Position numbers and translations under genes: made by a program
From: Gemmataceae bacterium
Lineage (GTDB): Bacteria > Planctomycetota > Planctomycetia > Gemmatales > Gemmataceae
Direction: 5' to 3'
Assembly (NCBI GenBank): GCA_009692065.1
Contig: SHZY01000015.1
Coordinates: 1 to 56,287, forward strand
DNA length: 56,287 nt
Notes under the pieces: generated by a model
The model's database searches: none
The model's input: the letters and a program-made list of their open reading frames with translations, nothing else
Told to the model about the DNA's origin: nothing
Part shown: positions 19,742-28,016 of the stretch, one piece after another
Position numbering within the stretch: position 1 is the first letter of the stretch
Layout of the letters: every line of letters starts with the position of its first letter

Positions 19742-20989
<1,248 letters not shown>

Positions 20990-20990
20990 C

Positions 20991-21043
20991 CACTTGCGGC
21001 TTAGCGCTCGCGTGGCGCCGTGCGAGCGCTAAGCCGCAAGGGG
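20991..21043. repeat. GCCGCTTGCGG-family palindrome, copy 3
   Basis: The arms CACTTGCGGCTTAGCGCTCGC and GCGAGCGCTAAGCCGCAAGGGG, directly after the metK stop. It probably ends the metK transcript or separates it from the methyltransferase-like genes. Confidence 0.8.
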
Positions 21044-21139
21044 CAGATTGAGCGTGAAAATTTCTTGACACCACCGCCCCCTCGCCCTTAACGTATTTCT
21101 TGGACCCCACCGACCATTTTTGCATCGAGGAGTGACCCC

Positions 21140-21790
21140 ATGTTGAAGCGTATTCTCGGTCTGACTGCTTTCGCCGTCTGCATCGCCGTGCTCTTGAACA
21201 CCGGTACGATCACCGGCGGCGAGAAGAAGAAAGACAAGAAAGACGACCCCAAGTACAACAACCCGACCTTCGTTCCCACCGCGGATGAAGTCATCGAAAA
21301 AATGTTCGAGATGGCCAAGGTCAACAAGGACGACGTTATCTTTGACCTCGGCTGCGGCGACAACCGCATCTGCTTCATGGCCGCCAAGAAATACCGCGCC
21401 CGCGGCGTCGGCATCGAGACCAACCCGGTCCGCATCAAGGAAGCGATGGAGATGTTCGAGAAGTATAACAAGGACGACGCGATCAGCTACGGCGGCTCTA
21501 TCAAGCTGCCCCTGGTCGAGACCCGGCACGGCGACGCGCTGGCGATCAAGGATCTCAAGGACGCGACCGTCGTCGTCATGTACATGTTCCCCGAGTTCAT
21601 GGACCTTTGGTTCCCGATTGCCGAGAAGACGCTCAAGCCCGGCACCCGCATCGTTTCCCACGACTATAGCTGGACCAAGGGCTGGGAACCGACCGCCACC
21701 GCCACCGTGAAAAGCTCCACCCGCGACAACCACAAGGCAATCCTGTGGATCGTCCCGGAAAAGAAGAAGAAGAAGGCGGCCAACGAGTAA
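21140..21790 (+). CDS. Exported class I methyltransferase-fold protein A
   Basis: A 216-residue protein with signal peptide MLKRILGLTAFAVCIAVLLN and a Lys-rich linker (EKKKDKKDD). From residue 45 it has a class I SAM-methyltransferase fold. Motif I is VIFDLGCGDNRI, the acidic end of beta 2 is GVGIETNP, and a later strand is ATVVVMYMFPEFMD. A tandem paralogue begins 58 bp downstream. In most methyltransferases motif I ends GDGR/GTGR; here GDNR replaces GDGR. SAM is not expected outside the cytoplasm, so either the signal is a membrane anchor with the domain inside, or the fold has another ligand. GAGGAG precedes the ATG. The methyl acceptor is unknown. Confidence 0.78.
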   Translation: MLKRILGLTAFAVCIAVLLNTGTITGGEKKKDKKDDPKYNNPTFVPTADEVIEKMFEMAKVNKDDVIFDLGCGDNRICFMAAKKYRARGVGIETNPVRIKEAMEMFEKYNKDDAISYGGSIKLPLVETRHGDALAIKDLKDATVVVMYMFPEFMDLWFPIAEKTLKPGTRIVSHDYSWTKGWEPTATATVKSSTRDNHKAILWIVPEKKKKKAANE

Positions 21791-21848
21791 CTTGCCCGAT
21801 TTCCCAGCCGTTTGCGGCTGGGCATTTCCCTTTCGAGGAGTTGATCCG

Positions 21849-22415
21849 ATGCGCAACCTGCTGATCGTCGCCGCCCTTGCCGTGCCGCTCCTGGCCTTTG
21901 CACAGGATCAAGGCGAGAAAACCCCTTGCCGGATCATCTACGTTCCGACCGAGCAAGTCGTCGTCGAGAAGATGCTCGAAATGGCCAAGGTCAAAAAGAC
22001 CGATCTCGTATTCGACCTCGGCTGCGGCGATGGCCGCATCGTCGTGACGGCTGCGAAGAAGTACGGCTGTAAAGGCGTCGGCATCGATATCGACCCGGCC
22101 CGCATCAAGGACTCGCTGGCCAGCATGCGCAAAGCGGAAGTCAGCAAGGACCTGGTCGATATCCGCCAGGGGGACGCGTTGAAAGTAAAGGATCTCGAAA
22201 AAGCGACCGTCATCATGCTTTACATGCTGCCGGAATTCATGGAAAAGCTGGAGCCGCAGATGAAGGCGCGGCTAAAACCAGGCACGCGCATCGTGGCCCA
22301 CGACTACCCGTTCCCGAACATGGAGCCGGACCAGGTCGTCGAGTTCGAGGTCAAGGACAGCCCGCGGCCGAAGTTCCTGTATATGTGGACCATTCGCGAG
22401 CCGAAGAAGAAATAG
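21849..22415 (+). CDS. Exported class I methyltransferase-fold protein B
   Basis: A 188-residue paralogue of the preceding gene. The signal peptide is MRNLLIVAALAVPLLAFAQ with predicted cleavage after FAQ. Motif I is VFDLGCGDGRIVV, a canonical form, followed by GVGIDIDPARIKD and ATVIMLYMLPEFMEKL. Compared with copy A it lacks the Lys-rich linker and the roughly 10-residue insertion before the third strand. GAGGAG lies eight bases before the ATG; an earlier in-frame start at 21792 would put 19 residues ahead of the signal and is rejected. The 58-bp spacing suggests one operon. The shared mLPEFM/MFPEFM motif and GTRIVAHDY/GTRIVSHDY suggest a common substrate. Confidence 0.82.
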   Translation: MRNLLIVAALAVPLLAFAQDQGEKTPCRIIYVPTEQVVVEKMLEMAKVKKTDLVFDLGCGDGRIVVTAAKKYGCKGVGIDIDPARIKDSLASMRKAEVSKDLVDIRQGDALKVKDLEKATVIMLYMLPEFMEKLEPQMKARLKPGTRIVAHDYPFPNMEPDQVVEFEVKDSPRPKFLYMWTIREPKKK

Positions 22416-22478: not shown

Positions 22479-22583
22479 GTCCGAACTAAAATACATTTGT
22501 AAGAACCAATCCGTTTCGCGTATCATTTCGTCACATTAACGGACGTCGTTGCAACCCGTCGGTTGATAATACGGAGGTCCACC

Positions 22584-25500
22584 ATGTCGGCACAGAAATC
22601 CACGCTGCGTTGGCGCCTTGTCGGAGTAGTTCTTTTGCTTTGCGGCATCGGCGCCGCGACCGCCATCTGGAACACGGTCTCCGAAGCCGGCGGCCAGGGC
22701 TTTGAGCCCCGCGTGCTTGCCGTGTTCAAGGACAAACAGCTTCAGGTTGCGATCGAGATTCCTGGGTCCGCGGAAAAGGGGCTGACTGGCAAGGTCAGCG
22801 TCGATTTGCTCGGCAAAGACGGCAAGGCGCTGGCCAGCCGGGCTTCGAAGCTGAGCAAGCTCGACCCAAACACTCAACTCGCCTTCCAGTTCGATGACGT
22901 GAACAAGGCCGACGCCGAGAACCTCAGCCTGCGCGTTCAGTTCAAGGGCAAACAGGTCGTGTTCCAGCTCGCCAAGGTGCTACTCGGCAAGGGGCATGAG
23001 ACGACCATTAGCGCCGGCACCGAGTTCCATGCCGGCAGCCAGGCGTCGCTCCATTGTACCGTACAGGGCATCCGCTCCATCGCCGAGTCGGTCCCGCACG
23101 TCGGCAGCAACGTCGTCATTTCCCTGATCGACGCCAAGAAGAACAAGCACCACGTCTACTCCGGCCTGACCGACCAAAAGGGCAAGGTGCTCGCCAACTT
23201 CGACATCCCGACGCTCGAAGCCGGGACCTACACGATGGAAATCGCGACCCGCTCGGCCCTCGGCGAAGAAAAGCTCGAACGCCAGGTCCGCATCAAGGCT
23301 GACGGCAAGATCCTGCTGGTTACCGATCGCCCGATCTATCAGTCCGGCCATCTGATTCACCTGCGTGCGCTCGCCCTGCGTTCCTTCGACATGAAGCCGC
23401 TCGAAAACAAGGACGTCCTCTTCGAGATCGAAGATCCCAAGGGGAACAAGGTCTACAAGAAGACCTTCAAGACCTCCGACTTCGGCATCGCCTCGGTTGA
23501 TTTCCAGCTTGCCGACGAAGTCAACATGGGCGACTACAACCTCCGCGCCATCATCGGCGACATCCGCGCCGAGAAGACCGTGCAGGTCAAACGCTACGTG
23601 TTGCCGAAGTTCAAGGTCGAGGTGAAGGCCGACAAGACGTTCTACCTGCCGAAGGAAAAAATCACCGTCGATCTGCAGAGCGACTACTTCTTCGGCAAAC
23701 CGGTGGCGAACTCCAAGATCGAGGTGTCTGCCAGTACGTTCGATGTCGCGTTCAAGGAGTTCTCGAAGTGGAAGGGCATGACCGACGCCAATGGCCATGC
23801 CAAGTTTGAGATTCAGCTTCCTGATTACTTCGTCGGCCAGCCATTGCAAGCTGGCAATGCGATCGTCAAGCTCGATATCAAGGTGCTCGACAATGCCGAC
23901 CACACCGAGAAGGTCGTCAAGTCCTACGCGGTCAGTGACCAGGCGATCCGCCTGAGCGTGATCTCCGAAGGCGGCAAGATGGTGCCAGGCCTCGAAAATC
24001 GCGTGTTCCTCGCCGCCATCTATCCCGATGGCAGCCCGGCCCCGAACGTCGAAGTCAAGCTGTGGCACAAGCGCGAAGCCGACGCGCAGCATCCCTGGAT
24101 GGGCGGTCGCGGCGGTCGCTTCGGCGGCGGCATCGCACCGCAACCAGTGCCGCAACCCGGCAAGGAACAACCGAAGGAAGAAAAGGTCGGCGACCCGATC
24201 GCCGTCGTCAAGACCAATTCGGCCGGACTCGCCGAAGTCAAGATCACGCCCACCAAGGAACAATTCCGCGCCGGCGGCTGGGGCAACCGCGATATCGAAA
24301 TGGTCGGCGGCAACCAGCAGCACTTTGGCGCTCAGCCCGTTTTCGACCTCCGCCTCGAAGCCAAGGACCCACGCGGCAATCTCGCCCGCACGCATGTCGC
24401 CCTCAATAGCCAGCCGCTCGGCGAAAACGTCCTCCTCCGCCTCGACAAGGCGATCTACCAGACCGGCGACCGCATGAATATCGACATTCGCACCTCGGCG
24501 GGGTTGCCGACGGTCTATGTCGATATCATCCGCGGCGGCCAGGTGATGCTCAGCAAGTGGCTCGAAGTCAAGGACGGCGCCGCCCTGCAGACGCTCGACC
24601 TGCCCCAGAGCGTCTTTGGCAGCCTCGAAATCCACGCCTATCAAATGCTCAGCCACGGCGAGATCATCCGCGATAGCCGCGTGGTCTACGTCCAGGCGAA
24701 GAACGACCTCAAGATCAGCGTCCTTCCCGGCAAGGAAGTACACGAGCCGGGCGAGGATGGCCGCATCCGCTTCCAGGTGACCGATCAAGCCGGCAAACCC
24801 GTTGCCGCAGCGATCGGCGTCATCGTCGTCGATGAAGCCGTGTACGCTCTGCAAGATTTGCAGCCCGGCCTTGAGAAGGTTTACTTCACGCTGCAAGAAG
24901 AACTGCTCAAGCCGCAGACGCAGATCAAGTTCGGCCCGGGCGACACGATCGACAACATCGTCCGCCAGCCAGTCATCCCCGCCGGCCGCCAGCAGATCGC
25001 CGAGGTGCTCTTGACCTCCGTAAAGCTGCCGCGGCCGCAGCGCTGGGAAGTCAACCCAGGCATCGAGCGCAAGCGCAATTTCGAGGCCCGTATCAGCCAC
25101 GTCGCCAACATGATGTACCACGTCGCCTTTGAGCATGGCACCGCGATCGAATGGGACAAGAACGCTAACCGCTGGGTCTTCCGCAAGGACCTGCTCGAAG
25201 ATATGGTCAAGAAGAACCTGCTGCACCCGACGCACCTTGACAACGGCTTCGGCGGTAAACTCACGCTCGAAGACCTGACCAAGGTCGAAAAATCAATGAC
25301 GCCGGAAAACCTGGCACGCTCCGTGACGGCTCAGCGCCTGCAAGGCTGGCAGCACCATCTTCAGGTGTACGCGAGCCAGAATCACAAGACGCTCCTGAAG
25401 GACGGCCGCTGGACCCTGCCGGCGAACGGCCTCGAAGTGGCCATGAAAGCCACCGGCCTCGACAAACGCTGGATGAACGACGGCTTCGGTGAAGCGTTCC

Positions 25501-26564
25501 GGCTCGTCAAGAAGGCTCGCAAGGACAAGAAAGACCCGACCATCTTCGACGATTACGATGTCGTCTCCGCGGGCCCGGATTGCCGACTGGGCGGCCGTGA
25601 TAACGTTAATCTCGCCACAGCCGTGGATCAGATGAACCGCTTCGGCTGGGCCAACTCGCAGCTCTGGTTCCTGAACCGTGACCTCGCGGACGCCACCAAG
25701 AACATGAAAGCCGATCGCTTCGAGATGCAATTGGAACGCGGCGCCGTCAATAGGCGCGCCGGCGACATGCACATGCCGCCGATGATGCCGATGGCGGCCG
25801 GTGGTATCGGCGGCGGTCCCGGCGGCGGTGGCATGATGGGCATGGGCGGCGGAGGGGGCGGTGGCGGCATGGGCGGCGGAGCAGCAGCTCCCGTCACGCG
25901 CGTCCGCGAGTACTTCCCTGAAACCATGCTCTGGCAGCCCAGCCTCATCACCAACGACAAGGGCATCGCCGACATGGCCGTCAGCTTCGCCGACTCCATC
26001 ACCACCTGGCGATTGAGCGCGTCGGCCAACTCCCGTGCCGGCGCCATCGGCGGCGCGACGGTCCCCTTGAAAGTCTTCCAGGACTTCTTCGTCGATATCG
26101 ATCTCCCGGTCAGCCTGACGCAGACCGACGAGATCGCCTTCCCCGTCGCCGTCTACAACTACTTGAAGACTCCGCAGACCGTGAAGATCGAATTGCAAAA
26201 GGAATCTTGGTTCGAGTTGATCGACAACGGCGGCTTCACCCGCAGTCTCGATTTGCAACCGAACGAAGTCACCAACGTCAAGTTCCGCATCCGCGCCGGC
26301 AAGATCGGCTGGCAGCCACTCACCGTCAAGGCGTTCGGCAGCAAGAAATCCGATGCCGTCAAACGCGTCGTCGAGGTCGTGCCCAATGGCCAAAAGTTCG
26401 AACGCGTCATCAGCGATCGCCTGAACGGCAAGATCGTCCAGGAGATCCCGATGCCGGCGAACTCCATCCCCGATGCCTCAAAGCTCATCGTCAGGATCTA
26501 TCCCGGCGTGATGGCCCAGGTCCTGGAGGGAGTTGAGGGTTTGATACGACTACCCGGTGGCTGA
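22584..26564 (+). CDS. Alpha-2-macroglobulin family protein, N-terminal part up to an in-frame TGA at the thioester Cys
   Basis: 1326 residues before the TGA. GGAGG precedes the ATG of MSAQKSTLRW, and a membrane or signal segment (residues 14-34, VGVVLLLCGIGAATAIW) exports it. Macroglobulin-like beta domains follow, with typical macroglobulin segments (LLVTDRPIYQSGHLIHLRAL; VQVKRYVLPKFKVEVKADKT). Around residues 1062-1102 is a Gly/Met-rich tract, then VREYFPETMLWQP, which in vertebrate alpha-2-macroglobulin directly follows the bait region. The chain reaches LEGVEGLIRLPGG and stops at TGA (26562-26564). Homologues have GCxEQ here, so TGA sits exactly at the thioester cysteine. The downstream frame continues without shift. 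Family role: trapping proteases in the periplasm or outside the cell. The full-length product would be 1810 residues. Confidence 0.93.
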   Translation: MSAQKSTLRWRLVGVVLLLCGIGAATAIWNTVSEAGGQGFEPRVLAVFKDKQLQVAIEIPGSAEKGLTGKVSVDLLGKDGKALASRASKLSKLDPNTQLAFQFDDVNKADAENLSLRVQFKGKQVVFQLAKVLLGKGHETTISAGTEFHAGSQASLHCTVQGIRSIAESVPHVGSNVVISLIDAKKNKHHVYSGLTDQKGKVLANFDIPTLEAGTYTMEIATRSALGEEKLERQVRIKADGKILLVTDRPIYQSGHLIHLRALALRSFDMKPLENKDVLFEIEDPKGNKVYKKTFKTSDFGIASVDFQLADEVNMGDYNLRAIIGDIRAEKTVQVKRYVLPKFKVEVKADKTFYLPKEKITVDLQSDYFFGKPVANSKIEVSASTFDVAFKEFSKWKGMTDANGHAKFEIQLPDYFVGQPLQAGNAIVKLDIKVLDNADHTEKVVKSYAVSDQAIRLSVISEGGKMVPGLENRVFLAAIYPDGSPAPNVEVKLWHKREADAQHPWMGGRGGRFGGGIAPQPVPQPGKEQPKEEKVGDPIAVVKTNSAGLAEVKITPTKEQFRAGGWGNRDIEMVGGNQQHFGAQPVFDLRLEAKDPRGNLARTHVALNSQPLGENVLLRLDKAIYQTGDRMNIDIRTSAGLPTVYVDIIRGGQVMLSKWLEVKDGAALQTLDLPQSVFGSLEIHAYQMLSHGEIIRDSRVVYVQAKNDLKISVLPGKEVHEPGEDGRIRFQVTDQAGKPVAAAIGVIVVDEAVYALQDLQPGLEKVYFTLQEELLKPQTQIKFGPGDTIDNIVRQPVIPAGRQQIAEVLLTSVKLPRPQRWEVNPGIERKRNFEARISHVANMMYHVAFEHGTAIEWDKNANRWVFRKDLLEDMVKKNLLHPTHLDNGFGGKLTLEDLTKVEKSMTPENLARSVTAQRLQGWQHHLQVYASQNHKTLLKDGRWTLPANGLEVAMKATGLDKRWMNDGFGEAFRLVKKARKDKKDPTIFDDYDVVSAGPDCRLGGRDNVNLATAVDQMNRFGWANSQLWFLNRDLADATKNMKADRFEMQLERGAVNRRAGDMHMPPMMPMAAGGIGGGPGGGGMMGMGGGGGGGGMGGGAAAPVTRVREYFPETMLWQPSLITNDKGIADMAVSFADSITTWRLSASANSRAGAIGGATVPLKVFQDFFVDIDLPVSLTQTDEIAFPVAVYNYLKTPQTVKIELQKESWFELIDNGGFTRSLDLQPNEVTNVKFRIRAGKIGWQPLTVKAFGSKKSDAVKRVVEVVPNGQKFERVISDRLNGKIVQEIPMPANSIPDASKLIVRIYPGVMAQVLEGVEGLIRLPGG

Positions 26565-26612
26565 ATGGAGCAAACGTCATCCGCGGCCTACCCAAACATC
26601 TTGGTCGTGGAT
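26562..26612 (+). promoter_or_regulatory. In-frame UGA at thioester Cys with downstream hairpin, possible selenocysteine signal
   Basis: The reading across the junction is LPGG-UGA-MEQTSS, where the family has GCxEQ. A stem starts 14 nt after UGA: 26579-26588 (AUCCGCGGCC) pairs with 26603-26612 (GGUCGUGGAU) in ten consecutive pairs, two of them G-U, around a 14-nt loop. Spacing from UGA to the loop is 24 nt, within the range known for bacterial SECIS elements. Against this, the loop begins UA, so the usual G in the first two loop positions is missing. An alternative CCAA/UUGG stem within the loop is possible. The hairpin is also coding sequence. Selenocysteine is a hypothesis; nonsense mutation or base-call error is the alternative. 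Confidence 0.45.
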
Positions 26613-28016
26613 TACATTAAAAAGGCCCGTGTGGCCTCTCCTCAGCTCCTGATGAAAAGCGAACAGTTCCTCAACGTCGGTTACCAAAAGCTGCTCACCT
26701 TCGAACGCCCCGGCGGCGGTTTCGATTGGTGGGGCAACGGCGAGCCGCTCGTTTGGCTCAGCGCCTATGGCCTGCAAGAGTTCAGCGATATGTCCAAGGT
26801 CTATCCGATCGACCGCGGCATCATCGACCGCACTCAGGGCTACCTCATGAAAAAGATGGACAAGGACGGCTGCTGGGCCGACATCGGCGCCACCCACGGC
26901 GAAACCATCGCCAGCATGGGCAATACCAAGCTCCTCTTGACCAGCTACGTCGTCTGGTCGCTCCTCGATAGCGGCTACGACAAGAACCAGCTCAAGAAGT
27001 CCATCGCTTACATCCGTGACAACGTCAACACCGCCGGCGACAACAGCTACATCCTGGCATTGGCCGCCAACGCTCTGGCCGCTTACGATGCCAAGGACGA
27101 TAGCACGCTGTCGGTCCTGCAGAAGCTCGAAAAACTGCGCAAGGACCTTCCCGATTGGCGGGCGTCGAGCTATCCGAGCAAATCGACCTCGATGACCTAT
27201 GCGACGGGCGATTCCGTCACCGTCGAGGCGACGGCCCTCACCGCGCTCGCCATGATCCGGACCGGCCAGTTCACCAACAGCGTGAACCAGTCGCTCACCT
27301 ACCTGATCAAGACCAAGGCGGGCAACGGCACCTGGGGCAGCACCTCGGCCACCATCCTCGCCCTCAAGGCCCTCGTCGCCGGCATGGGCAATGTCGAACT
27401 CAAGGACGACGTGCTCTTCACCATCAAGGTCAACGGCAAGGAAGCGCACCGCGGCAAGGTCGAGAAGGCCGCCTCCGACGTCATGCAGACCTTTGAACTC
27501 AAGGAGTTCAAGGCCGACGGCGCCAACCAGGTCGCGATCGAAGTCAACGGCGAAACGCCGCTGATGTACCAGATCGTCGGCCGCCACTTCGAGCCGTGGA
27601 AGAAAGAAGTGGTTCAGAAGGAATCCACCCTCGAAGTCGCCGTCGAATACGATCGCACCAAGCTGTCCACGAAGGACATGCTGAAGGCGAAAGCGACCCT
27701 GAAGTACACCGGCAAGATCCCGACCTACATGGTCATGATCGATCTCGGCATCGCCCCAGGCTTCACCGTCGATCCCGGCGACTTCGCCGAGATGGTCGGC
27801 AAGAAGCAGATCATGAAGTTCAGCGTCACCGAGCGCACCGTGACGATGTACCTCGGCGACGTCAAGCCCGGCGACGTGCTCACCTTCGAGTACGTCCTGC
27901 GTCCCAAGTACCCGCTGCGCGCCCGCACCCCGGCCTCGGTGGCGTACGAGTATTACACGCCATCCAACCGCGTCGAAGCCCGACCGGTGGAGTTGATCGT
28001 GGAGGACAAGAAGTAA
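26565..28016 (+). CDS. Alpha-2-macroglobulin family protein, thioester-domain and C-terminal part
   Basis: 483 residues in the same frame as the preceding part, starting directly after TGA with MEQTSSAAYPN. Here the Gln of the thioester motif (GCxEQ) is kept, while the Cys codon is the TGA. The alpha/alpha-toroid thioester domain covers residues 1-260 (ILVVDYIKKARVAS, GGGFDWWGNGEP, GCWADIGATHGETIASMGN). A macroglobulin/receptor-binding-like domain follows, ending FEYVLRPKYPLRA...VAYEYYTPSNRVEARPVEL, which resembles the C-terminus of animal alpha-2-macroglobulin. As a separate gene it lacks a strong ribosome-binding site, and an ATG placed directly after TGA would need stop-start reinitiation. 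The simplest reading is one protein with recoded TGA, or one broken gene. A strong terminator follows. Confidence 0.9.
   Translation: MEQTSSAAYPNILVVDYIKKARVASPQLLMKSEQFLNVGYQKLLTFERPGGGFDWWGNGEPLVWLSAYGLQEFSDMSKVYPIDRGIIDRTQGYLMKKMDKDGCWADIGATHGETIASMGNTKLLLTSYVVWSLLDSGYDKNQLKKSIAYIRDNVNTAGDNSYILALAANALAAYDAKDDSTLSVLQKLEKLRKDLPDWRASSYPSKSTSMTYATGDSVTVEATALTALAMIRTGQFTNSVNQSLTYLIKTKAGNGTWGSTSATILALKALVAGMGNVELKDDVLFTIKVNGKEAHRGKVEKAASDVMQTFELKEFKADGANQVAIEVNGETPLMYQIVGRHFEPWKKEVVQKESTLEVAVEYDRTKLSTKDMLKAKATLKYTGKIPTYMVMIDLGIAPGFTVDPGDFAEMVGKKQIMKFSVTERTVTMYLGDVKPGDVLTFEYVLRPKYPLRARTPASVAYEYYTPSNRVEARPVELIVEDKK

Follow-up and report, generated by a model that had tools for sequence, protein, structure and literature searches.

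A predicted alpha-2-macroglobulin (A2M) gene of a Gemmataceae bacterium carries an in-frame UGA at the codon of its thioester cysteine. It is very probable that this UGA (codon 1327) encodes selenocysteine (Sec); the residue would form a selenoester with Gln1330 for the trapping of proteases, and its insertion is predicted to rely on the genome's own SelA, SelB, SelD and tRNA-Sec together with a downstream RNA signal composed of two hairpins, H1 and H2. The gene lies on the forward strand of the window, by which we denote the whole analysed stretch of 56,287 nucleotides. The reading of the UGA as selenocysteine, proposed in a preliminary description of this DNA, is strongly supported by the presence of sel genes, by UGA at the same codon in 24 genes, and by the RNA downstream. 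Since UGA occupies the position of the reactive Cys of relatives in 24 bacterial A2M genes, selenium likely replaces sulfur there.

The A2M gene (22584-28016) comprises 1,810 codons with one UGA read through. Its start is likely the ATG at 22584, which is preceded by a Shine-Dalgarno-like GGAGG (22575-22579). Translation of positions 22563-28016 yields 1,818 codons with one stop ahead of the terminal one, the TGA at 26562-26564, which is codon 1327 counted from the ATG at 22584. The domains MG2, MG3, A2M_BRD, A2M, TED and A2M_recep pass the Pfam cut-offs, and the TED match (26508-27377, residues 1309-1598) runs across the TGA; the frame LPGG-TGA-MEQTSS continues unshifted and with its family character kept, as the preliminary description had it. 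A search of the gene against NCBIfam gave no match. The thioester motif of the A2M family is CxEQ (PMC3328433), and the window gene has UxEQ: the Gln is retained (Gln1330, CAA codon at 26571-26573, the predicted ester-bond partner of Sec1327) and the sole internal stop of an intact gene falls exactly on the position of the Cys codon. The gene shares its MG, bait-region, TED and receptor-binding domains with A2Ms of the CxEQ type (human A2ML1, CD109 and A2M; ECAM/YfhM), whereas these have a thioester Cys codon in place of the UGA. The sequence is far closer to the animal proteins A2ML1, CD109 and A2M (A2ML1, E = 1e-62) than to E. coli YfhM (5e-9). Directly before the A2M domain is a Gly/Met-rich stretch, MAAGGIGGGPGGGGMMGMGGGGGGGGMGGGAAAP (25791-25892), where the bait region could sit. 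Upstream of the A2M gene (19742-22415) are genes for an S-adenosylmethionine synthetase and two methyltransferase-like proteins.

The preliminary description left it to the relatives whether this codon is Cys or TGA, and divergent relatives carry either TGA or TGC/TGT. UGA is found at the thioester-Cys codon in 24 different A2M genes from 20 genomes of Planctomycetota and Chloroflexota, a count that omits the duplicates L055, L056, L057, L087, L134, L150, L156-L159 and L163. The TGA is followed by TTC in 15 genes, TTT in 5 and ATG in 4, and then by the residues EQ in all 24. Among 114 unique aligned rows (13 duplicates and one too-short row removed) the thioester codon is TGA in 19, TGC in 52 and TGT in 43. 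The own genome and 98 relatives, with at most four candidates scored per genome, have TGA on this codon in five loci, namely that of the window and four orthologues, and TGC or TGT in 25 of the 30 loci kept. A scan of 392 Planctomycetota genomes (own included) matched 14 at E ≤ 1e-75, in 16 places, 13 of them with one TGA; within 23 genomes of one class, nine were matched at E ≤ 1e-80, with one TGA in 12 of 12 places. Two of 400 Chloroflexota genomes were matched at E ≤ 1e-75, one with a UGA and one without a stop; the UGA genes of this phylum are L119 and L121. All UGA matches contain one TGA each and no further stop within the matched stretch. A wider contig search used the alignment as query, a single-protein query having confirmed no relative; the best 80 of its 577 relatives have TGC (39), TGT (35) or TGA (6, three of them already counted), and UGA genes are under-sampled in this set because one of the two search patterns requires a Cys codon.

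Several genomes harbor more than one UGA A2M gene: G176 has three different ones (L142, L149, L165), G237 (L140, L164) and G215 (L135, L148) two each. A related A2M with Cys (L081) is filed under a metagenome-assembled Undinarchaeales archaeon. The own genome also encodes a distant A2M paralogue (L152, C232:42500-48500) with Pro (CCC) at the thioester position; its motif, GGPFEQ, suggests that it is without any reactive residue.

An AlphaFold2 model of 349 residues (pLDDT 81, pTM 0.72) has 193 residues at 90 or above, nearly all in the TED, and places the Sec position (model residue 120) directly before a helix (121-141). Foldseek matches of the TED model in the PDB are led by A2ML1, C3b and CD109 (TM-scores by query 0.5-0.6), and TEP1 ranks within the top ten; the TED fold is common to this protein and the thioester domains of complement C3 and C4. 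C3 has a catalytic His. A search for its counterpart found the His of a conserved THxE one residue off the CD109 His, and no A2M His aligned.

The sequence and the model also bear on the role of the residue. A redox function is assumed for the majority of prokaryotic selenoproteins (PMC9312934), and Sec might accordingly be inserted as a redox or metal-binding residue, with covalent trapping given up. We regard this as unlikely: the Gln of xEQ is retained in 24 of 24 UGA genes, the TED fold is confidently predicted, and Sec exchanges with Cys only throughout the 114 aligned rows. In the selenoester reading, Sec would serve acyl transfer and not redox chemistry. The A2M resembles the 87 bacterial selenoprotein families of that survey in having an in-frame UGA with Cys homologues, sel machinery and a downstream hairpin.

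The RNA behind the UGA folds into two predicted hairpins (positions are given with the T of TGA as +1). The first, H1 (26576-26615, +15 to +54), has 12 pairs and a loop of 14 nt and is the predicted folded spacer; the second, H2 (26623-26637, +62 to +76), has 5 pairs and the loop CGUGU (26628-26632, from +67) and is the predicted SelB-binding SECIS hairpin. A stretch of 81 nt beginning at the TGA has a folding energy of -27.7 kcal/mol (z = -3.03), and 1 of 200 shuffles is equally low. The ten-pair stem that had been noticed 14 nt past the UGA is real and lies inside H1 (26579-26588 with 26603-26612). The preliminary description had noted that its loop lacks the usual early G, and the 14-nt loop of H1 indeed contains no G whatever; H1 lacks the SECIS loop signature and, in correction of that description, is probably not the SelB site itself. 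The bSECIS model asks for a stem of at least 4 pairs and a short loop with G in one of its first two positions, then G or U (PMC13188914). H2, a hairpin overlooked at first, has such a stem and loop, with G at the second loop position followed by U, whereas H1 does not. The same model places the apical loop 16-37 nt from the UGA; the loop of H2, in contrast, begins 63 nt past it. With H1 (40-46 nt) counted out, the path from the UGA to the H2 loop would shorten to about 17-23 nt. Given that the signature is absent from H1 and present in H2, it is likely that H1, as a folded spacer, draws a SelB-type loop near the UGA.

The folds were compared between UGA genes and 22 Cys genes, the latter being the Cys loci of the 99-genome and 392-genome scans minus the six most distant (74 Cys loci of the wider contig search were unused). 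Against synonymous-codon shuffles, folding of the H1 region is significant (p ≤ 0.05) for 15 of the 19 UGA genes and for 1 of the 22 Cys genes. All 19 UGA genes and 3 of the 22 Cys genes have a short stem with a G[G/U] loop whose energy is -4 kcal/mol or lower, a threshold set after seeing the data; the shuffle test of this G[GU]-loop hairpin gives p ≤ 0.05 for 9 of the 19 UGA genes and 1 of the 22 Cys genes, and the window gene's own H2 has p = 0.055. Five UGA genes found later, three of them near relatives of one another with the same hairpin as L144, all have the hairpin (p ≤ 0.05 in four), and the H1 region is significant in all but L165. In 21 of the 24 UGA genes the loop begins between +62 and +81 (58-77 nt past the UGA), in most cases behind a folded spacer; in L119, L121 and L139 it begins between +20 and +26, and these three, as well as the own selD, keep the usual distance of the model in PMC13188914.

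Covariation was assessed in 12 UGA rows with H2 near +62, leaving out 7 of 19 rows whose hairpin lies elsewhere. Pairing is kept in 88.2% of cells, and 27 cells are changed on both sides, compared to a shuffled mean of 8.5, with 0 of 500 shuffles as high; slid versions reach at most 8. The combined p values are too small, because the 12 rows were picked after seeing the folds and are related. RNAalifold recovers both hairpins unprompted, and for 10 of 16 pairs there is a row in which both sides differ. An Rfam scan around the A2M gene gave no SECIS among its six matches, all far under the cut-offs. L149 and L165 have their hairpin further out, at +72 to +90 after the TGA with the loop at +81, and differ by a paired change (GACGCC-GGA-GGCGUC and GACACC-GGA-GGUGUC). 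The residues KKARVA (26619-26636) include the codons GCC CGT GTG GCC, identical in five UGA genes of the order and variable in Cys homologues; the RNA seems to constrain the protein.

The search of the genome for sel genes suggested in the preliminary description found the full set in the own assembly of the window (5.97 Mb, 255 contigs, 94% complete), which encodes selA (559.1 bits), selB (391.9 bits), selD (340 bits) and selC, the gene for tRNA-Sec (72.9 bits; ARAGORN also calls a tRNA-SeC). The own selD contains one TGA, at CAGUAGK, and therefore looks like a selenoprotein gene itself; a canonical hairpin of 10-11 pairs with the loop GGUUC at +36 is located downstream. Across genomes, tRNA-Sec scores above 60 bits in 14 of the 17 distinct UGA genomes searched (G208, G319 and G374 left out). 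G215 (59% complete) and G330 (80%) have none above the Rfam cut-off, and G223 (82%) has one match of 49.5 bits (cut-off 47), a range in which tRNA-Ser genes also score. SelA is found in 19 of 20 UGA genomes (missing in G215) and 10 of 13 Cys genomes, SelB above the cut-off in 17 of 20 and 9 of 13. In no UGA genome are tRNA-Sec, SelA and SelB all missing, and the genomes without one of these parts are incomplete assemblies. Of three Cys genomes, G141 has one tRNA-Sec above 60 bits, G126 one of 53, and G168 none above the cut-off; tRNA-Sec is present in 66 of the 99 genomes (own and relatives). We note that the machinery is common and occurs also in Cys-A2M genomes, and co-occurrence by itself therefore proves little.

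Cys is the residue of the other aligned relatives, and a reassigned code or a mischarged tRNA-Sec could cause the UGA to be read as Cys or as a different residue. This is very unlikely, as UGA is the terminal stop of 11 of 22 sizeable ORFs of the window (hand-picked, not all checked as genes), and hence a normal stop in this genome, while it occurs once inside the A2M gene, at a site accompanied by SECIS-like RNA and the full sel set.

A chance nonsense change or a base error, in a gene that is decaying or misread, has next to no probability as the source of the UGA. A single base separates TGA from TGC and TGT; TGA being the one-step nonsense codon, the absence of TAA and TAG at the site is uninformative and was given no weight. 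However, the same codon is TGA in 24 genes of 20 genomes whose matched stretches are otherwise free of stops, and the folded RNA is a property of the UGA genes, not of the tested Cys genes. Six pairs have dN/dS values of 0.04-0.53 before and 0.05-0.39 after the UGA, which points to purifying selection on both sides. The scattered frame damage in relatives that would have spoken for decay was not seen, with the exception of L141 (G390), one of the 24 UGA genes, whose open frame is half-length (807 aa). The earlier A2M part of L141 lies in a different frame and the TED half has a signal-peptide-like or lipoprotein-like start of its own; L141 may thus be a split two-gene A2M or a damaged gene. 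The 483-residue piece after the UGA has 608 matches in 5.8 billion proteins, and of the 120 listed, which include the window's own protein, 111 start at MEQ, residue 1, directly after the site. A stop at this place, at which gene callers would break the frame, would produce such a pattern, although which stop precedes these proteins is not visible from protein sequences. Hardly credible, finally, is a true stop behind which the ATG restarts translation for two chains to assemble: an ATG directly follows the TGA in the window gene but in just 4 of the 24 UGA genes, the other 20 having TTC or TTT, not usual start codons, and the thioester residue kept by aligned relatives would be lost.

In a quick tree of the 114 TED rows, 17 of the 19 UGA rows group within a single clade of Planctomycetota (27 rows, SH-aLRT 98), and the two Chloroflexota UGA rows lie elsewhere. 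All ten Cys rows of this clade fall within one 15-row subclade, which holds the relatives of the window. The UGA/Cys label requires 6 changes on the tree, compared to 17.9 in shuffles, and starred branches force 2. With the root unfixed, the tree suggests at least two gains of UGA and some returns to Cys.

For the selenocysteine reading, we propose the following course of events. The own-genome SelA, SelB, SelD and tRNA-Sec would insert Sec at UGA 1327, with H1 folding away 40-46 nt of spacer past the UGA and H2, behind it, presenting a G[G/U] loop to SelB. A selenoester between Sec1327 and Gln1330 would replace the thioester. The protein would presumably be exported and then trap its target: cleavage of the bait region by a protease would expose the acyl group to an amine or hydroxyl of that protease, with the selenolate as leaving group. 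The pKa of Sec is 5.24, that of Cys 8.22, and Se-based ligations are faster (PMC10096412); a Sec-Gln selenoester would therefore be the faster acyl donor. Selenoesters are also prone to hydrolysis (PMC10096412), which would be a cost for a stored warhead.

No selenocysteine-containing A2M was found in the open-access literature searched, preprints being outside its scope. Table 1 of PMC9312934, with 87 prokaryotic selenoprotein families, lists no A2M, macroglobulin or thioester protein, and the terms 'macroglobulin' and 'A2M' are absent from the main texts of deep-Sep (PMC12013277) and of a 2026 review (PMC13188914). Planctomycete selenoproteins are described in PMC4807772, whose text, supplementary tables aside, does not contain 'macroglobulin'. 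It is a reasonable expectation that the proteins described here form a natural protein selenoester, with selenium as the leaving group of a covalent protease trap, Planctomycetota-wide and with a separate origin in Chloroflexota, and that they are decoded by a two-domain SECIS whose folded spacer brings a SelB hairpin back to the UGA from 58-77 nt away. If true, they would constitute a new selenoprotein family, related to complement and alpha-2-macroglobulin, whose selenium would serve acyl transfer and not redox reactions. The natural use of selenoesters, the question why costly Sec pays in a single-use trap, and the working of bacterial SECIS hairpins at a distance via a folded spacer would thereby become testable. 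The findings also suggest that many database entries are truncated forms of one large selenoprotein.
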